Positions 45,101 through 64,000 of a DNA stretch of 64,000 bases are shown piece after piece (within the stretch, counting starts at the first letter, position 1; the number at the start of each line of letters is the position of its first letter). This DNA is from Daphnia carinata (lineage: Eukaryota; Arthropoda; Branchiopoda; Diplostraca; Daphniidae). The notes beneath the pieces were generated by a model that made no database searches, was not told where the DNA came from, and saw nothing but the letters and a program-made list of their open reading frames with translations. The DNA is taken from positions 2,852,001 through 2,916,000 of the forward strand of contig NC_081340.1 of NCBI RefSeq assembly GCF_022539665.2, in the 5' to 3' direction. The position numbers and the translations under genes are program-made.

Positions 45101-48100
45101 TTGAAGGGATTGATGAAAGGCAGCGTTATGGCAAAAATGCTCAGGTACTGTTCTTCCACAAAGGATGAATATACTTCAGGAAGGCGGTTGAGCGTCGAAA
45201 GAAATTCGAGGATATTCGGTGCAATCGAAACGGTTGCCGAAATCTTGGACAAGCTAAGCAGAACTCCCGGGAGTAGCTTATACATTGTTTCTTTCATTTC
45301 CAGGGCAGATATTGTAAGGGCAACCACACAAGTTTTAGCCGTATCTGTAAATAGTTTTAAGCAGAGCACTTTAGTATAATAATAGATACTATTTTTACCG
45401 TATGTCAAAGAGATACTGTTACGCAATCTGCATTAAACTTTTGTAGTTATGGGTGTGTGCGAATGTAAAACCTTTATATTTCAGTCCGATTTCAAGGCAT
45501 TTCACAAGTTTTTGTTGGGTGTCCGGCTTAAGGTAAGCATGGTAAGACGCCAAAGATGTCAGAACGCGAAAGACATAAAGCTGGAACTCGGAACGCGAAA
45601 ACTTGGGTGGCGCATTTCTCAACGTTTCCGGATTGTTAAGATTGACATCGCTGATCAACGAGCATAGTGCCTTTCCCACATAGTCAATGTCTGTGTTATG
45701 CCGAGAAAGAACTAATGCCTTGTTATTGAGAACCTAACAGAGAAAAAGACAAATAAGCTGGTTAAAGTGTCTATGTTTAAACTAAAACCAAATAAAGCAA
45801 ACACACACACAAAAAAAAGGCGGGGGATAGATGTTGGATTTTGATACTCACACGTGGAATTTTTTCAAGAACTAATTTCAAAACCCTCCAATCTCTTTCC
45901 TGAGTGAGACACCGAATCACTGCAACGCAAGCTTCTCCGAGCGACATCTGGGTGACTTGGGCAAATGACGTTGAGCTAGGGTCGTCTGTAGCACTGCGTA
46001 CTTCCTTGCGGCTAGTACCACCGACACGTTCTCCATGTTTGTGATCTATCAAAATGTACGGGCTGTATCGTGGTAGCAGGGCATATCCCAGCCGATAGTC
46101 ACCTAACAAAATGCACTACGTTAGTTATGCAACTGGTAGCTCTCAGACATATTATCATTACCATCTCCTGTGATATTAAGAATAAAATCGAATACAGCGA
46201 GCTTTGTAGAGAGCGCGAATTCAAAGTAGATGGGTTTTTCGTAGTGCAAATTCGCGTGGCGCACCAGTGTCTTATAAATTTGTACAGCGTGCAGCGACGG
46301 TAATTGGTACATTTTAACAAGGAAGAGTTCGATCAGTCCGTTTGTACATTTAACCACATCGCCAAGTTCTTCCTCGCTCGGAATGTTGACTATGTCACCG
46401 TGATCCATATTAAATGGCCGTTCCATTATTCTTTCAAGGACGTCCAATAAGCCGGTGCAATGCTTAGAATTACAGTGGCGACAAAGAGAGATAATTAAAT
46501 CCACCGCTTTCTCCCGGACCGACACTTCATGCTCCATGTGGAGATTCTGGAACAGGGGAAGCAACACTAGTTCTAGGAGCTCTTCGTCGTGTAGTCTTCT
46601 TTGCGTGACGACAATGGATTCAATCATGGCCAATATTCTAAATCGCGGTTGAATCCGCTTTTCTTCTACATAGAATCTACAACAAAGACAAATATTTTAG
46701 TGGTTTCATTAAATGCACTTTTTAGTTTTCTTTTTAATTACTTAGTTCTAGTATACCTTTGTATGAATTTGTTCAGATTAGAAATCCAATTTGGCTGGCT
46801 GGGTTTAATTTTTTCCACCTGATAATTCATCAAGAGGACTACCGACGATTCACTTAGGTAAGGTAAACCCCTTTCCACCGTAGCGAAAAACAGTTCCATT
46901 GACCCCGTATAAACACCTTTTTCAACTAGATCTTGCACATCGCAGAGTATTTCCAAAAACATCTGTCGGACTTTTGGATACTCATCACCAAACTGAAGAA
47001 AATGCTCCAAGATCTCCAAAATCCAATCCCAGGCAAGCCCTACTAAATTTGGGCCATCTAGTCGAACTAGTTTTTGCAATGTAAGACCAGTCTCAAAAAC
47101 GACGAGAGGATTTTTGTTGTGTTTTAGCGCTTCGCTCAATGCCGGTAATACAACAGCAGAGGGGCAATTAGGACAGTTGGCTGGTCGATCCGACCAGAGC
47201 ACCATACCCATGAAAAAGATTCCTCCTCTTAGAACAGATGGGTCTTCTGATGTCTGCAAGCTGTGAATTAGGGTATATAAGGTGCTTGTTCCAAGGTGTG
47301 TCCCAATTAGATTTCGCATGATTTTCCAAGAAAGACTGCTGTAACTGGAAACGTTGACCAAACGGCACAAGGTTGAGGTAAAAACCACGATCGATTCATT
47401 AGGAAGGTTGCTATAGCAGATGATCGCATCGAAGACCGATATAATCAATAAAATTTCTTCGGGATCGGGGCTAGAAATTGCCAATCCACATAAGGTACTA
47501 ACAACACCACCAATCATGTTTCCATCCACATAGGCAGAATTGAACTTGATGACATTCAAAAGAAAAGGTAAAAATTGTTTCAACAATTGTAGCTGAGACA
47601 CTTGTGGAAGGAATTGCAACAAAAAGCTTCCAATAGATTCTTCCAAGTACAGCAAATCTTTCCCATTGTCAGTCATTGCTTTGAGCAGTTCAATAAGTAT
47701 GAAGTCATCTTCGTTGAACTGAGATTCTTTCACTATATCAAAGATGTAGACTCGGAGCATTCCAAGGCGTTCATACTGGCCAGTAATAAGGTTCTTGAGG
47801 AACATAAGAGCTGTTTGTCTTTCTTCAGTTGAGCTGATGACAAATAAATCATTGATCAGCAGCCACAAAGTCTCAGCACCATCATCTTCAATTCTTTTGG
47901 TTGCAACTTCTTCACCTATTTCTTGTAGAATCTTCAGTCTCTGTGCCACAGGTATCTCACAAGTAAGTGACCTCTGCACATCTCTACTCAAAATAAATTT
48001 TTCTACTTTGAGGCGAGGAAATGACCCACAGGTTTGGCTTTGTGATGATGCAGGGGATTTAGAAGAAAACTTGAAGAATTGCTTCAGTTTTTCCGGGAAA

Positions 48101-48123
48101 GTCTTATCTTTGTTGTTACTCAT
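42198..48123 (-). CDS. TSC2: Tuberin (TSC2), Rheb GTPase-activating protein
   Basis: Thirteen exons (46757-48123, 46162-46676, 45852-46102, 45472-45733, 45100-45344, 44596-45024, 44389-44533, 44100-44333, 43743-44039, 43334-43667, 42741-43263, 42479-42652, 42198-42395) sum to 4974 bases, 1657 residues; every junction phase fits (human tuberin about 1807). The ATG at 48123 (MSNNKDKTF) is the only ATG start. The tuberin HEAT-like N domain covers the first several hundred residues (NLITGQYERLGMLRVYIFD, FLSTLNRLPEVYSSFVEEQY). The Rap/Ran-GAP domain spans about 1360-1590 (NPSFIFLQLYYSP, PYETHKIGVLYIG, NEHGSVRY, ATLMPTK) and keeps the asparagine thumb at about 1514 in RHIGN and YNDSGED. The protein ends LDFTEFTSPKLA, like the vertebrate DFTEFV end. 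With TSC1, tuberin turns off Rheb and so restrains TORC1. An Akt-type R-V-R-S-G-S site near residue 954 sits where human S939 lies. Confidence 0.97.
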
Positions 48124-49436
48124 TTTATGTGACTTCTTCGTCGGCGGAAAACCGTCCCACTTCAATTAAAGATGATTGATGGAGCCTCTTGGATCCGTTT
48201 GACATGGGAGGCAGTCAATGTTCATATAATATACGGTCAATTGTTATTTTAAGACGAGGTCAATGTCAAAAACTCTGGTGCAACGTAAGGGTATGTAAAC
48301 ACCGAATGGGCGAAAAAGGGTGAATCCAGTCGTTCTTTACAATGGGAAACAAGGAACATCACTTAACGATTTGAGCAGAAGAGAACGTTTTAGTTCGTCT
48401 GCACCGTACTTCACTACAAGTATACCACATACTGGAATGTGACAACCCCAGCATGATCTCGTTAGGGATTGGCTCCGAGCCAATCGGGGTAAGCTCGTAT
48501 TTTCGCCCCGCCCCGGTTGATGAAATGGCCCCCATTTATGCCCCGAATGGCTTTTTTCAGGGCAGAAACCACGGCTAGAGGCAATAGGGATCCCTAGATA
48601 ATGTTCATGGCTATTTAGCAAATTTAGCGATTATCCTCACGCCAATCGGGTAGCTTTTTCAGTGATCTGTTGGATCATGTGGGTTTTCGGTGCGGGTCTG
48701 GCAGATGACCGATCAACCATTTTTCAACCCATGGGTAAACATATCTAAACCGGGTCATGACCAAAAAAGGATCCTGATCTAAGAACCAGTTACACCGCTT
48801 CCTATCCCTTTTACCCCGACTTCTGCCCCGACTTCTCTCCAAAAATGTGACCACTGTTCTAATTTCATTCAATATATAGTTCTATGGTTCTGCTTTTGTA
48901 AAACTCATTAAAAGAATAATGCACAAACCCAAACTTTCCTTTTGTTATTAGCTTTTTTTATTGAACCGATTTCAATCTGGCATCTGGCAACGTAGCAAAG
49001 AAGTATCAAGGAAGAAAAGGAGATGGATAACTCCATACTAAGAAAACGTGAGCAGTTTGTTGCCAATTTTCAGCTGATATTAACGCCATCCTACGACTGG
49101 GAGGAACATTTCTGTACATTCCCCATTCCTTTCTGTAATCTCAGAAGCGTAATTTGGACGCGAAGCCATTTATAAATTTTTTCATTATGCTTCTATCAGT
49201 GGTAAATTAGTTAATGGTTGAGGGGATAGTAGTCGTACCAAGCCATAGCCATAGCCATAGTAGTCACCAATAACCTGAGTAAATAAAATCAAAAACATAC
49301 AATACGATCTATGTACTGCTTTTTCCCGACGCTAGACAGCGCCGATGCTCTTTAAATTTTTCTCTCTATGGTCTTGCCCATCTCCCTTTCATCTCTGGGA
49401 AGTACTGGATACTGAATTGCGTGCCAATTTTTGAAA
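48124..49436. promoter_or_regulatory. Divergent intergenic region between TSC2 and CENP-M
   Basis: About 1.3 kb separates two start codons on opposite strands and should hold both promoters and 5' UTRs. A 94-residue minus-strand frame (48337-48621) and a 65-residue one (48675-48872) are not recognisable. A triple AGCCAT hexamer lies near 49240-49260. Confidence 0.45.
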
Positions 49437-50244: not shown

Positions 50245-50364
50245 GTATTTTTCGAGAAGCTGATATCTGCACATTACCTTGAATTTTTTGCATTCCTAAT
50301 TGGTTACTACCCAAATCAAGTACTTTAATTTTCCACCACATAAGTACTGGTTTTGTAGCCAAGG

Positions 50365-50370
50365 TTTATT
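50365..50370 (-). terminator. Candidate poly(A) signal of serpin (distal last exon)
   Basis: Minus-strand AATAAA about 270 bases beyond the distal serpin stop at 50640. It would serve the transcript ending in the -PPSS exon. Confidence 0.4.
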
Positions 50371-50639: not shown

Positions 50640-50788
50640 TTAACTGGATGGAGGCTGAGCCAAACGTCCAGAAAATAGGATCATTTTAGTTGTATTGTCG
50701 CGGATGAAGTAATAAAAAGGGTGATCAGCGACGAACGGTGCAGGTGGTTCCACGGGTAGCATCATCATACGTGTCATCATAACGGCAC
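50640..50788 (-). other. Serpin alternative last exon B: Met/Arg loop, no ER-retrieval tail
   Basis: Acceptor TTTAATATAG/GTGCCG has the same phase as exon A. The loop reads A-V-M-M-T-R-M-M-M; by the spacing used for exon A, P1 is Met405 with Arg404 at P2, though a protease could also use the Arg. The exon stops after LAQPPSS with no retrieval signal. The two exons are only 152 bases apart and both end in stop codons, so they are alternatives, not a series. Confidence 0.85.
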
Positions 50789-53181
50789 CTATATTAAAGT
50801 TTAAAAAGCTTTCTAAAATTAAGGCAGAAATTCACTATTCACATTTGATACGCTTATTCCACTAACTAACGGCTACCGTGCTGAATCCTAAAACCAAAAC
50901 AAGGCTCCCTGAAGTGGATTTTGGAGAGGAAAACTTATTTTTACAGCTCATCGTTATGACGGTCAGGTGTCATTTCGGGATCGAAACGAATAAAACGTGG
51001 TGCAACAAGGCGTCCAAGGAAGATCCACGTGCCGGTACCGTTGTCTCGTAAGAACCACATGAATGGGTGGTTGGCAATAAAGGGTTCCGCTAACTGATCT
51101 TCCATAACATGCAATGACCGCTTCATTCTAGTAGTACTACCTGTTTCGCCGATCCAAACCAACGTGAAAAGCAATAGTAAGCATAACGAAAATTTGCCAA
51201 GCATATCACAATAAAACAAGCAACAACCAAAGCATATTGACATTTGCAAAACCATTCGATAAACAGTCTGTACTGTCTGTGTGCAGTAAGGGAAGAAAAT
51301 GCACGTTATGGTTACGACGACTACTATTTGGATACGAAAAATTCACGCTCTTCTCCAGCTGAGATTTTACACCGCCCAAAATCTTATTGGTTTTAAAAAA
51401 TAGAACTATCACGAATATAGTAGCTAGCCATCAAAATAGTACGACGCTTTTCTCTTCATTTAAAACAAAAAAGAAACTAACTGACCTGTAGCCGCTGCAG
51501 CTTCACTTCCTTCTTCGTTGACATCAATGAATGACTTGTGGAATATATTGGAGACGTAAAGGTCTTTCTCTCCGGATATACCCGAAAAATCAGCAGATTT
51601 CTCGTCAAAGATATCTGATATCCCCATGCTGATTAGAATATCCTTTAGTTTAACGTCCGCTTCTAGTTTGAATTTTGGTAGAGAAACATGAAGTTTAGCA
51701 CTACGCATTTCCACATTGGAATCATCCAAAGAAGTTTCATGCAATTTGGCTTCCAATTCCGGCAACCCGTCGACTTTGTTCGGGAGAACGATAAACATGC
51801 TCAATTTGCGGCCCTGAATTTTTACAGAGTAAAGCTTTAAAAAATTTTAATATAATATTTTTTTAAGGTTTGAACAACCACATAAGGTAGCTCCAACATA
51901 CGAGCATCCAGACTCTCAATGTATCCACTTCGAAAATCGGCATCAATATGCATCATATTAACATCAATCTTTTTATCTTTGGATCCGATATAAAAAGGCT
52001 CCATTAAAGTCAGAGTTGAATCGAATTTCCGCATCCAATTTCCTTTGAAGTATATGGCATTGACCAGCACAAGTTTGGTCAAATAATTGACGGATCCTTT
52101 TTACGATAGTTTCGAGAAATGTCAGTATAAACACATAATAGACAAGGTTGGTTCAAAGGCAAGAAAAAACCTTCAGGGAGAAGATCCTTAATTTTGTGTT
52201 GTGTAAATTCTTCCACCCACTGGTTGATTTTCACACGAGACGCATCGACAGCAAAATCAACGCTCTGCCCTTCCGCTCCATAATTTTCTTTTAAATTTCG
52301 CTGGAAATCGTCAAGTAGCTGATACTTATCGGCCACGTACAACTGATTAGCAGCTTCGAGAGTGAAATTTCCGTCGCCCTTTGTCCAGAGCGATTTTAAT
52401 GTTATCCATGAATGAAGAATATACTTTTTATTTATATTATTGTTTTTAGGTTTTCACCCCTTACCTTCATGCTTTGAATGAGGCTGCCTATTATTCTATC
52501 ACTATTTTCATTTTCCTTTTCAAAATTTGTAAGTCCCATTGACTTTTTTAATTGCAAAGCTGTATTGTCTCTGGCACCTACTCCTACCATACTCAAAACA
52601 GCAGCAACACTAAAAGGAGAAATAAAAACATTGTCTGTTGGGGCATATTGCTTTCCTACAGCCTGTTAAGCGAAATAATAGATAATAGGAAATAAAAATG
52701 AATATGGAATTTATCAATACAAACAACTTTTAATTTTACCTGAAATAATGTAACTGAAAATTTTTGAAGTGCAGCTGCAGCTTTAGCTTGATCAGCAATA
52801 GTTGGTGGATTTGTGGAGATTGACGCCATTGTGGGAATATGGTATAGACAGATCACTAGAAAAGCAGTAGTTGCCACACAAGATAAAGTACCTGCAACAG
52901 AAGAAATTATACCTCACCACAAATCATGCAATTTTATTTTATTATTATTGGGTAATTTGTAAACAGAGTAATATAATACAGACATCTACAGTATGAAAGC
53001 GTTTAAAAAAGAATACTTTATAGTTTCAATGGAGGCAATGCACTGACAGTCTGATATGACTGCACCTTTAAGTGAAACACACAAAAAACTCACGTATCAG
53101 TGACTGAAAAGGTGAGTCACTTGAAACGGAACCGGAACTACCATCAAGTGGCTGATAGTGACGGTGCGCAGGCTGCGTCAT
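50640..53181 (-). CDS. Inhibitory serpin with two alternative reactive-loop last exons
   Basis: Common exons 53094-53181, 52740-52891, 52465-52662, 52171-52378, 51879-52096 and 51486-51813 join in phase to either of two last exons: 50941-51140 (463-residue protein) or 50640-50788 (446). The serpin fold is clear: NVFISPFSVAAVLSMV, TLEAANQLYV, TKLVLVNAIYFKGNW, MFIVLPN, and the inhibitory hinge NEEGSEAAAATG ending at residue 398, where the choice is made. Proximal exon: loop STTRMKRS, body FIANHPFMWFLRDN, and C terminus RHNDEL. Distal exon: loop AVMMTRMMM, body FVADHPFYYFIRDN, end LAQPPSS. Trapping serpins are cleaved at P1 and lock the protease covalently; R-x-K-R before Ser fits furin-like convertases. 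Exon 1 adds 29 polar residues before a hydrophobic segment (residues 31-50), so the N terminus may be a signal anchor; an internal Met at 52829 is an alternative start. Confidence 0.92.
50941..51140 (-). other. Serpin alternative last exon A: furin-type loop plus ER-retrieval tail
   Basis: Acceptor GAAACAG/GTAGTA, phase 1, matches the donor of the hinge exon (ACAG/GTCAGT). It encodes S-T-T-R-M-K-R-S after the hinge, then the serpin C-terminal strands, and stops after -DRHNDEL. The spacing from the hinge Gly to R-M-K-R puts Arg at P1 and the basic tetrad at P4-P1. The terminal DEL is of the KDEL/HDEL class although Asn at -4 is not the commonest residue. Confidence 0.85.
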
Positions 53182-53502: not shown

Positions 53503-56011
53503 ATGTGTGATGTTGATCAAGTAGCAAAGGCTTTAGAAAAATGGGCCGTGGAGGAAATGGGATTTCGTAATATTCAAAAGAAAAATGGGATTGACACAAA
53601 CAAATCTACGGATTTAAGCGGGTAAACTATTCTTGTTCTTTGTAGTTTGACGTGTACATTGTTGTTTTATACGTCAACCGTCAGCTAGTTGTTCATATAA
53701 TTCTTCACCTAAAATTGTTTTTCCAATCACCTCATCCTTTTCAAGGATATGCCTTGGACCCATGGCTGACATTTGGATGTATGTTATAAAACATGTGAAA
53801 AGTGAAACAACTGTTCAGACTATTAAAGGAAACCTGAGTCTTCATTCAAGAGCCCAAATCGAGGTTGCAATTTTGTGAATGATTGTGTTCATCTTTAACT
53901 TAAACTAGATTTTTCTTTGACATTTGTGTAGGATCCCCAAAAGGTTAACCTTGTCACCCAAAAGGAAAAGCTAAAACAGGAAATTGCTGATCTGAGAAAA
54001 ACGAATGCTGTCCTTTATGATAGTTTAACAGAAGCAAAAACATCAATGCAAAAACAAGAAACTGAGTTAAGGAAGAAAAAGCTTGCATTTAGAGATTTGA
54101 AAAGATCATCGGTCCTGCTAAATTTAGTGAAAGACAATATTGAAGATAATATAAAATCACTGAATAAGAATGGCAAAGAAATAGAAAAACAATTTCTGTC
54201 TCTTGCACCTCAGCTTGAGAATGAGACAGATCTTGAGCGATATAAAATTGATGTTGAAAATATGTGCAAACTAATGCAGAATTCATTGAATGAACTGTTG
54301 AATGAAGAACCAAATATTGAGAAAGTCAATGCTACCAAAATGTCTGTTGGAAATCATTTAGCAACCCTGCTGGAAACCCTTCCTCATCCTCTCTTCATGA
54401 AATTGATTCAAGAACAGCAGGCAGCAGCTGTTTTAGCCATAAATCACAAGGATTTCCGTTTACCTCAGCAAAGTAATACGGCGCCCGATTTTATTCCAGA
54501 TAATGTGCAACCCTTACAGAAACTGCTGTACGAAATTTCTTGGTATCATACTGAAACTGCAGCACGTGCGGAAGCTGCAAAAAAACAAGCCATACCATTA
54601 AAACAGGAATTGGAAAAAATGAAAGCAAAAATATTGCAATCTTTGCATATGCGTTTTGATGCCGAAGATCCAAAACTGGCCGATGAACAATTTAAAGCGA
54701 TTGAAATGGAAATCCAGCTTGCGAGCCGTAAAGGTGCAATAGAGTCCCTGAGAACAAATTTAGAGGAGCTGGAAAACTTCTGCACCCGTTACGAGGCTCG
54801 ACAGGCTGATATTGAACAAAAGATTCGTACTATTGAAAGCAACAGCCGACTTTCAGACCACCTCACTGCTTTAATTTGCACATTGGCTAGGAAGCGCGCC
54901 AATAGTCCAGATCTTCTGCAGCAATTAGTTAACCAATCGCAGCGGATGGTGAACGAAGATTTCTCCACCGTTCATAATACATTAGGTAATTTTATGGAGT
55001 CATCCAAGTGCAACTTCGTCGAAAAGGAAATGGAGTTGTACCGTCAGCTGCAACCTTCTCAGCTATTTAATGTCCGCATGGACACGTAATGCCACACGTT
55101 TTCATTTTTCGTTGAAAGACACATTCATTTTCCTCTCTTATTTAGGAAGCTTGTGCCTGTAAACCGCCTGTCATTACATCGACTTTTACTGACAGGCGAC
55201 TCGGATGTGTCAGGAAATCATCTTGAAAAGGCTCTGAAGTGCCTAGGTATTGCTTCCACCCTACCTGTTTTTCGAGTCTTAGAGAGGGTCGGGGAAAAAC
55301 AGTTAGAAATGCGAAAAATGCAGCAAGCTCTAAAGTGGCATGAAACCAGGAATTCGGAGATGATAGAAAAACATGGACTAGTCTGGCTCGAAAATGGAGC
55401 TCTTCATTATAAAGGTTTACATTTTTTCCCTCCATTGTTAGAAATTACTAACGTTCGTGCCAGCTTATATATATATATATATATATATTTTACCATAAGA
55501 GCTAGCAAAGATGTTAGATGATAGTTGGAATGCACAAAAGACAGCTATATCACCTTCCTTGGAATTACGCCGTAAGAGGATGGAAGAAGCTCTGAAATAC
55601 ATCGCAGATGTCGACGTCGCACTGCATGAATGGTAATAGTTTTTCACTTCTCCATATATATATTATTTTTTCGCAATTTTTTCCTATCTGCTGTCCAGTA
55701 CAAATGATCTCTTTTGTTTATCAAATTGAAATTGCCCTCACGTGCCCCCATTATGTTTTAGAAATGCCGTAAACCGTAACCTTGCCATACGATTCACGGT
55801 GCTAATGGCCTCATTACTTTTCGTTTGATCAAAAGCCTTCTGTCCTTTTTTTTTGTTATAATTGAATCACTAACAGGTGTTGGTATACTTTAGGTGCAAC
55901 GAACCAGCTAAGTTTATTGACACAGGCCGCACTGTCAATGGGAAAACGCTTGACCAGTGGAATGTCGAATGGAAAAAATCCCTTACTTTGTGCCGCAAAA
56001 AAGCCCCGTAG
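53503..56011 (+). CDS. HAUS5: HAUS augmin-like complex subunit 5
   Basis: Six exons (53503-53621, 53746-53863, 53932-55085, 55146-55414, 55506-55632, 55894-56011) sum to 1905 bases and encode 634 residues; human HAUS5 is 633. Phases close at every junction. The N terminus carries the family signature: KWAVEEMG, then ICLGPMADIWMYVIKHVKSE and TTVQTIKGNL, as in human WAVEEMG...CLGQGADIWAYILQHVHS...TVKKIRGNL. The rest is long alpha-helical coiled coil (for example residues 85-175 and 260-350), as expected of an augmin subunit. Augmin recruits gamma-tubulin to existing spindle microtubules and so branches them during mitosis. The splice sites TATAAAG/GTTTAC and ATCGAG/GTTGCA are weak donors but the frames demand them. 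The gene looks complete; it shares a promoter interval with the serpin and converges on the Mae-like gene. Confidence 0.92.
55466..55488. repeat. (TA)n microsatellite in HAUS5 intron 4
   Basis: About 23 bases of alternating TA in the 91-base intron between the fourth and fifth HAUS5 exons, close to the acceptor at 55504-55505. Confidence 0.9.

Positions 56012-59951: not shown

Positions 59952-64000
<4,049 letters not shown>

Follow-up and report, generated by a model that had tools for sequence, protein, structure and literature searches.

A Daphnia serpin gene with two alternative reactive-loop exons is a probable counterpart of Drosophila Spn42Da

A 64,000-nucleotide stretch of Daphnia carinata DNA (contig NC_081340.1, positions 2,852,001 to 2,916,000; hereafter the window) carries on its minus strand a serpin gene in which six common exons can be followed by either of two phase-compatible terminal exons, A and B. 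The first supplies a furin-type loop with an ER-type C-terminus and the second an Arg-Met loop. As read from the DNA, the architecture is that of a Spn42Da/Spn4-type gene, and we put the probability that it is the Daphnia counterpart of Drosophila Spn42Da, with two bait loops on one body, at roughly 80%.

Exon 1 (53094..53181) encodes the start Met and an N-terminal tail (MTQPAHRHYQPLDGSSGSVSSDSPFQSLI) and matches NCBI protein P0001 exactly, while exon 2 (52740..52891) encodes the hydrophobic leader (TLSCVATTAFLVICLYHIP) and, after it, a Met (MASIS...) in the good context ACAATGG that is a possible start for a cytosolic form. Serpin core is encoded by exon 3 (52465..52662), exon 4 (52171..52378), exon 5 (51879..52096), whose donor at 51878 agrees with P0001, and exon 6 (51486..51813), the hinge exon, which finishes with the residues EEGSEAAAAT and a donor GT at 51485 common to both forms. 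Terminal exon A (50941..51140; acceptor AAACAG↓GTAGTA, stop TAA at 50943-50941) reads GSTTRMKRSLHVMEDQ...RHNDEL and comprises the loop GSTTRMKR↓SLHV, the s4B/s5B strands and an extension to HNDEL (arrows mark splice junctions or scissile bonds). Terminal exon B (50640..50788; acceptor AATATAG↓GTGCCG, stop at 50642-50640) reads GAVMMTRMMMLPVEP...AQPPSS and comprises the loop GAVMMTR↓MMML and the s4B/s5B strands; it was earlier described as an M-T-R-M-M loop without a retrieval signal, which agrees with its PPSS end. Both hinge junctions are open and in phase (ACA G↓GT), giving products of 463 (isoform A) and 446 (isoform B) residues.

The isoform A model agrees in every residue with the NCBI protein annotated as "leukocyte elastase inhibitor-like isoform X1" (P0001, 463 aa). 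Together with the exon map, this identity bears out the sequence-only reading of one serpin gene with two alternative terminal exons in the same phase. Since, in addition, each of the loops is met again in other daphnids and among environmental proteins of the branchiopod side (here and below, "branchiopod side" and "decapod side" denote the placement of environmental proteins in our serpin body tree), the loops are more than chance. A search of the minus strand from 53200 to 47500 with an F-x-x-x-H-P-F type pattern returned only the A and B cassettes and no third loop exon.

Isoform A matches Pfam Serpin (PF00079) with 369.2 bits over residues 70-445. Its AlphaFold model (mean pLDDT 83.2, loop and tail below 50) has a predicted helix at 24-47 corresponding to the leader, and the solved folds that it matched were serpins, the best being 4GA7 (TMt 0.92); 4P0F, the Spn42Da structure, is absent among the 50 fold matches listed. 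Ranking solved serpins with the last 175 residues of isoform A placed 4P0F seventh, behind the serpin of 9J91, human serpins B3/B4 and B1, among others, and ranking with the hinge-plus-exon-A piece placed it fourth. Over the sequence as a whole, other solved serpins come closer than Spn42Da. The spacing from W to FKGxW, which bears on the two-residue indel after position 173 that Kumar and Ragg use as a mark of neuroserpin orthologues, is 37 residues by eye count here, in SERPINB1 and in Spn42Da; alpha1-antitrypsin has a shorter one. The hinge agrees with the inhibitory-serpin consensus printed in PMC2770083.

Exon A's loop GSTTRMKR↓S aligns without gaps with GMAVRRKR↓A of Spn42Da (PDB 4P0F), with KR on P2-P1 in both. 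In Spn42Da K341 is P2 and the variably spliced region runs from G335 on (PMC4006314), so R342 is P1, and in this register R-M-K-R of exon A occupies P4-P1. The canonical count from the hinge Gly (P15) puts the same four residues one position past the usual one; the earlier statement that they lie exactly at P4-P1 is thus right for the Spn42Da register and off by one residue in the canonical count. Both Daphnia terminal exons begin, at residue level, in the same Gly codon as the Spn42Da variable region, the Gly after AAAAT. Spn4A combines the RRKR loop, furin inhibition and an HDEL end (PMC4147316), and the sequences of exons A and B uphold the parallel drawn with it, namely a furin-type loop that goes with an ER-type tail, beside a second loop that has none. 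Exon B's TRM aligns gap-free with SGMIAISRM of neuroserpin, and [T/S]RM loops are found in 8 of 21 branchiopod-side rows as well as in some other crustaceans.

Under our main reading, one metastable serpin body (exons 1-6) would be joined to either bait loop through the acceptor at 51140 or that at 50788. Isoform A, with R-M-K-R↓S, would trap furin/kexin-type proprotein convertases as a suicide inhibitor; when translation begins at the upstream start, its leader would direct it to the secretory pathway, where NDEL would slow its exit from the early compartments. Isoform B, with M-T-R↓M-M, would inhibit trypsin-like Arg-specific proteases and be secreted when it carries the leader, and initiation at the internal Met of exon 2 would yield cytosolic forms. 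We infer the splicing in vivo from the gene model, and likewise infer inhibition and localisation of the isoforms. Candidate targets exist in the genome, in which six sites, spread over contigs C1, C2, C3 and C4, give P-domain (convertase-type) matches, with Peptidase_S8 matches nearby.

The tail of exon A had been taken for an ER-retrieval signal. The HNDEL end is confirmed and retrieval is plausible, but the last four residues are NDEL rather than HDEL and fall outside the pattern [KRHQSA][DENQ]EL. The Daphnia KDEL receptor is encoded on contig C9 and has the stretches TTRYLDLLTN and MEVLW, and we take it to keep the gatekeeper residues matching human D50, N54, E117 and W120. With NDEL outside the classical pattern and a receptor with the usual gatekeepers, retrieval may be weak; residence of isoform A in the early pathway is plausible from its sequence. 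That pattern is the classical one of PROSITE, and some signals fall outside it (PMC4476131). In human cells the receptor retrieves KDEL, RDEL and HDEL and does not retrieve ADEL or DDEL (PMC8248988, which makes no mention of NDEL), and a Theileria HSP90 is described as ending in S/NDEL (PMC5333456).

The sequence-only reading further proposed that specificity and localisation are switched together by one splice choice. This is not fully borne out, since ER entry also needs the hydrophobic leader of exon 2, so localisation is not a matter of one splice choice alone, and daphnid records occur both with and without the leader, those of D. pulex and D. galeata starting at the internal Met. Two choices probably govern target and compartment, as in Drosophila, where Spn42Da has forms with and without a signal peptide (PMC4006314).

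A reading compatible with the main one, to which we give somewhat less than an even chance, is that isoform A is a Golgi or secretory-granule convertase inhibitor and not an ER resident, its NDEL having drifted from an RDEL/KDEL-type end with retrieval weakened or lost. Such drift fits the RDEL ends of other branchiopod-side A tails (P0008, P0011, P0014), given that both Daphnia A tails found end in NDEL, and it fits the unchanged gatekeepers of the Daphnia receptor; a precedent for the destination is vertebrate neuroserpin, whose FEEL end directs passengers primarily to the Golgi and which itself resides in dense core vesicles in regulated-pathway cells (PMC2556349). It sits less well with the persistence of NDEL in two Daphnia species despite a changed linker before the tail, or with a wheat PDI-family protein whose NDEL end is called similar to KDEL (PMC4355359). 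If NDEL is weak, RDEL (other branchiopod-side proteins), HDEL (fly) and NDEL (Daphnia) would form a natural series for a target and compartment set by splicing.

The coupling of loop and tail was surveyed in 206 different proteins from two protein searches (the best 120 of 4,219 and the best 120 of 2,946 over threshold); two without the hinge pattern were dropped from loop counts, leaving 204. Among the 206 sampled proteins a [K/R]R[S/A] loop is present in 23, an xxEL end in 38 and both in 20. These 20 comprise two daphnids, three branchiopod-side proteins, a termite and its termite-like relative P0159, a cricket, a crab and one decapod-side protein, together with proteins of two molluscs, two acorn worms, one sea cucumber, one sea star and lancelets (two), and two further proteins. 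P0159, which lies outside the tree, is called termite-like for its 79% identity to P0109. With the strict pattern [KRHQSA][DENQ]EL, 21 sampled proteins are tailed, 14 of them among the 23 [K/R]R[S/A] rows; strictness misses Daphnia, termite and cricket, and the flea protein ends in RDEF. On the 66-body tree, loop and loosely defined tail (xxEL) changed the same way in 9.5 of 15 independent pairs on average and in opposite ways in none (sign test, p ~0.002). The [K/R]R loop and the xxEL end are associated across Bilateria. The coupling that had been proposed for an inhibitor in crustaceans is present in Daphnia but not specific to crustaceans, being found in the fly and, as a KR loop with a KDEL-type tail, in deuterostomes.

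Within these loops there is a split by length. All 10 sampled insect and branchiopod-side [K/R]R↓[S/A] loops (Drosophila, flea, cricket, termite and the termite-like environmental protein; two Daphnia and three branchiopod-side environmental proteins) have eight residues from the hinge Thr to P1 and Arg at P4, and in 8 of the 10 Ser-Leu follows P1. The other 14 sampled [K/R]R loops (crab, a decapod-side environmental protein, two molluscs, two acorn worms, sea cucumber, sea star, four lancelet rows, two ER-tailed and two tailless, and two further proteins) all have seven residues with Ile, Met or Leu at P4, and none is long with P4 Arg. The Spn42Da row was added to this survey by hand. As defined, [K/R]R before S or A, the loop pattern passes over loops ending in Lys, the limpet KRKRV loops (P0037, P0040) and the Artemia loop GIKIEKK↓S, a seven-residue dibasic loop without a tail from an animal that falls on the branchiopod side of the tree, which went uncounted for having Lys at P1. 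In the literature searched, neither this Daphnia gene nor the seven- versus eight-residue split was found described, which is weak evidence of novelty as subscription papers lay mostly outside its coverage.

A residue gained together with P4 Arg is the pattern expected of a character gained once, and for the insect and branchiopod furin-type loops homology is, on sequence, more likely than convergence. The alternatives of deep conservation and convergence, both left standing by the sequence-only reading, thus shift towards conservation through the eight-residue P4-Arg loops and the loop-tail association, with the body tree and the strand part of exon A giving no support. The body tree (63 of the 206 proteins and three typed cores, 66 in all) contains clades of branchiopods (18 rows, 100/99), insects with Spn42Da (10 rows, 100/98) and decapods (12 rows, 100/100). 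The phylogeny against insect Spn42Da that had been suggested as a check thus places Spn42Da within the insects; insects and branchiopods are not recovered together, and constraining them to do so costs 8.27 log units (p-AU 0.088), so that on their union the tree neither rejects nor supports. Within the branchiopod, insect and decapod clades alike, bodies with A-type tails stand among bodies with other tails, which is what a single gene with alternative tails would be expected to give.

Homology was also sought in the strand part of exon A, and the attempt was set aside. Scores against A-type and non-A rows were 67.7 and 73.7 for P0001, 64.1 and 69.9 for P0003, and 61.8 and 66.3 for P0008, all going against homology, in a comparison of these three query proteins with 15 A and 153 non-A rows outside branchiopods in which the A-type P0165 was counted as non-A and the flea stretch was badly placed.

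Convergence would mean that the furin-type loops and ER-type tails of Daphnia and Drosophila arose separately on related bodies, by repeated selection on a fast-evolving loop exon, and we regard it as improbable. Whether arthropod Spn4 and the deuterostome ER-type serpins share ancestry or converged was not settled by Kumar and Ragg (2008), who could not exclude homoplasy for Spn4 (PMC2556349); the arthropod status was called "recently becoming clear" in PeerJ in 2015, with citation of the fly structure (PMC4476131). Separate origins would be in keeping with the failure of the body tree to join insects and branchiopods, the lack of homology support from the strands and the seven-residue KK loop of Artemia. 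They would have to account, however, for a loop one residue longer with P4 Arg in 10 of 10 insect and branchiopod-side cases against 0 of 14 others sampled, for the recurrent Ser-Leu after P1, and for an exon boundary at the same Gly in Daphnia and Spn42Da.

Common descent of the insect and branchiopod loops can be extended into a history of two steps, which we hold at about even odds. An ancient bilaterian loop, [I/M/L]xKR↓S, that would suit convertases cutting at dibasic sites, would have been combined with a KDEL-like tail; the ancestor of insects and branchiopods would then have gained the residue and P4 Arg, making a furin-consensus bait, the Arg-Met splice alternative would have been kept, and the Daphnia tail would have drifted to NDEL, from the ER towards the Golgi. 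If this is true, the 2008 question is answered for arthropod Spn4 as homology and not homoplasy. The loop register of Daphnia, with its extra residue and P4 Arg, offers a simple testable character for common descent.

Records in relatives divide between the two loops. Those found for D. magna (isoform X2) and D. pulex (isoform X2) have the B loop, and that of D. galeata has the A loop and likewise ends in HNDEL; the exon A region used alone as a query matches only D. carinata and D. galeata. Among branchiopod-side environmental proteins, P0013, P0015 and P0028 have bodies 94-97% identical, differing loops and near-identical strand endings, a pattern of either loop-only swapping or very young duplicates. 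An internal Met after the leader is visible in most leader-bearing branchiopod-side proteins, and in P0005, P0009, P0012-P0014 and P0016 it closely follows the leader (TMAS, TMSS, AMAE and similar). As a general signature of dual starts a conserved internal Met was rejected, its frequency being 19/32 in leader-bearing pancrustacean proteins (34 inspected, two without a leader by the measure used) and 22/44 in other leader-bearing serpins, with 0.38 expected from Met frequency; within the branchiopod-side rows it is a lead only.

The sole AATAAA between 51140 and 50000 lies at 50365..50370 on the minus strand (an ATTAAA is at 50329), downstream of both terminal exons and so possibly shared by them. 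Exon A has its own stop, and the sole donor-like match after it falls inside exon B. The simplest reading of these features is a choice of acceptor with a shared 3′ end, in which the A message would keep the B region untranslated. That exon A is unused with the hinge exon, or a rarely used remnant, might be argued from the modest pyrimidine tract before its acceptor and from there being neither AATAAA nor ATTAAA between exons A and B, but this is very improbable given that NCBI isoform X1, an annotated model, is exactly the hinge-A splice, that D. galeata has the same exon, and that two environmental contigs of 1,855 bp (P0014) and 2,019 bp (P0011) carry, in a single frame, a serpin body with its hinge, an A-type loop and RDEL.

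Several other genes lie around the serpin. On the plus strand, an open frame starts at 53503 and probably serves as exon 1 of a gene whose 53932-55089 part gives a weak HAUS5-like match (21.9 bits, below the cut-off of 25.6; whole interval 53503-55089); as it stands head to head with the serpin, with 321 bases between the starts, the two may share a promoter region. A 475-residue open frame on the minus strand (46738-48165) matches DUF3384 with 229.6 bits, a domain that we take to be the N-terminal part of tuberin (TSC2), and a protein kinase exon on the plus strand (60220-60462; Pkinase, 57.5 bits) resembles SIK/AMPK-related kinases. Two more serpin genes lie about 29 and 49 kb away on the same contig, C10 (2926500-2936000 and 2948500-2957500); the nearer has its hinge intron at about the same place, with one terminal exon found nearby.

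Orthology to neuroserpin through head-to-head linkage with PDCD10 was considered and rejected, the sole PDCD10 match lying on contig C8 and the serpin on C10; for the fly, too, close PDCD10 linkage is reported to be absent (PMC2556349). Of the other neuroserpin marks, KR before the scissile bond and an ER-type tail, RMKR↓S is present and NDEL is of the xDEL kind though not classical. Lancelet Spn-1 (NMMKR↓S, KDEL) and sea urchin Spn-1 (TMTKR↓S, HEEL) are assigned to the neuroserpin lineage by PDCD10 linkage (PMC2556349). Like the Daphnia gene they have a KR↓S loop, a KDEL-like tail and a leader; unlike it they adjoin PDCD10, the lancelet loop is one residue shorter and lacks P4 Arg, and no alternative loop of Spn-1 is known from PMC2556349. 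Several lancelet records (P0057-P0059, P0061-P0063, P0082, P0093, P0095, P0103, P0106 and P0107) have similar endings with the loops KMRMM, MMKRS, MMTRC and RARMM; they are mostly isoforms X3 to X14, several are on one contig, two have KR and no ER tail, and they probably stem from one lancelet gene whose serpin body can take many different loops. Vertebrate neuroserpin (SERPINI1) has a loop, SRM, in gap-free agreement with TRM of Daphnia exon B, and differs in its FEEL tail and its gene structure (PMC2556349).

Serpin-1 of Manduca sexta and PpSerpin-1 of a parasitoid wasp resemble the Daphnia gene in having one body with several loops from alternative exons; the terms furin, HDEL and retention are absent from the paper on the wasp gene. 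Among the closest known systems is Spn42Da (Spn4) of Drosophila melanogaster, whose isoforms A and B share with Daphnia a common core, alternative loop exons, a variable part beginning at the same Gly, R-x-K-R at P4-P1 in the same register, an ER-type C-terminus on the furin-type isoform, and forms with and without a leader. Convertase inhibition is demonstrated in published work for fly Spn42Da only, the Daphnia gene being known here from sequence. The fly has four loop exons and Daphnia two found, and the furin-type isoform combines RRKR↓A with HDEL in the fly and RMKR↓S with NDEL in Daphnia. The Daphnia gene would be a two-exon, probably two-start version of the fly system, in an animal that serves toxicologists and geneticists.
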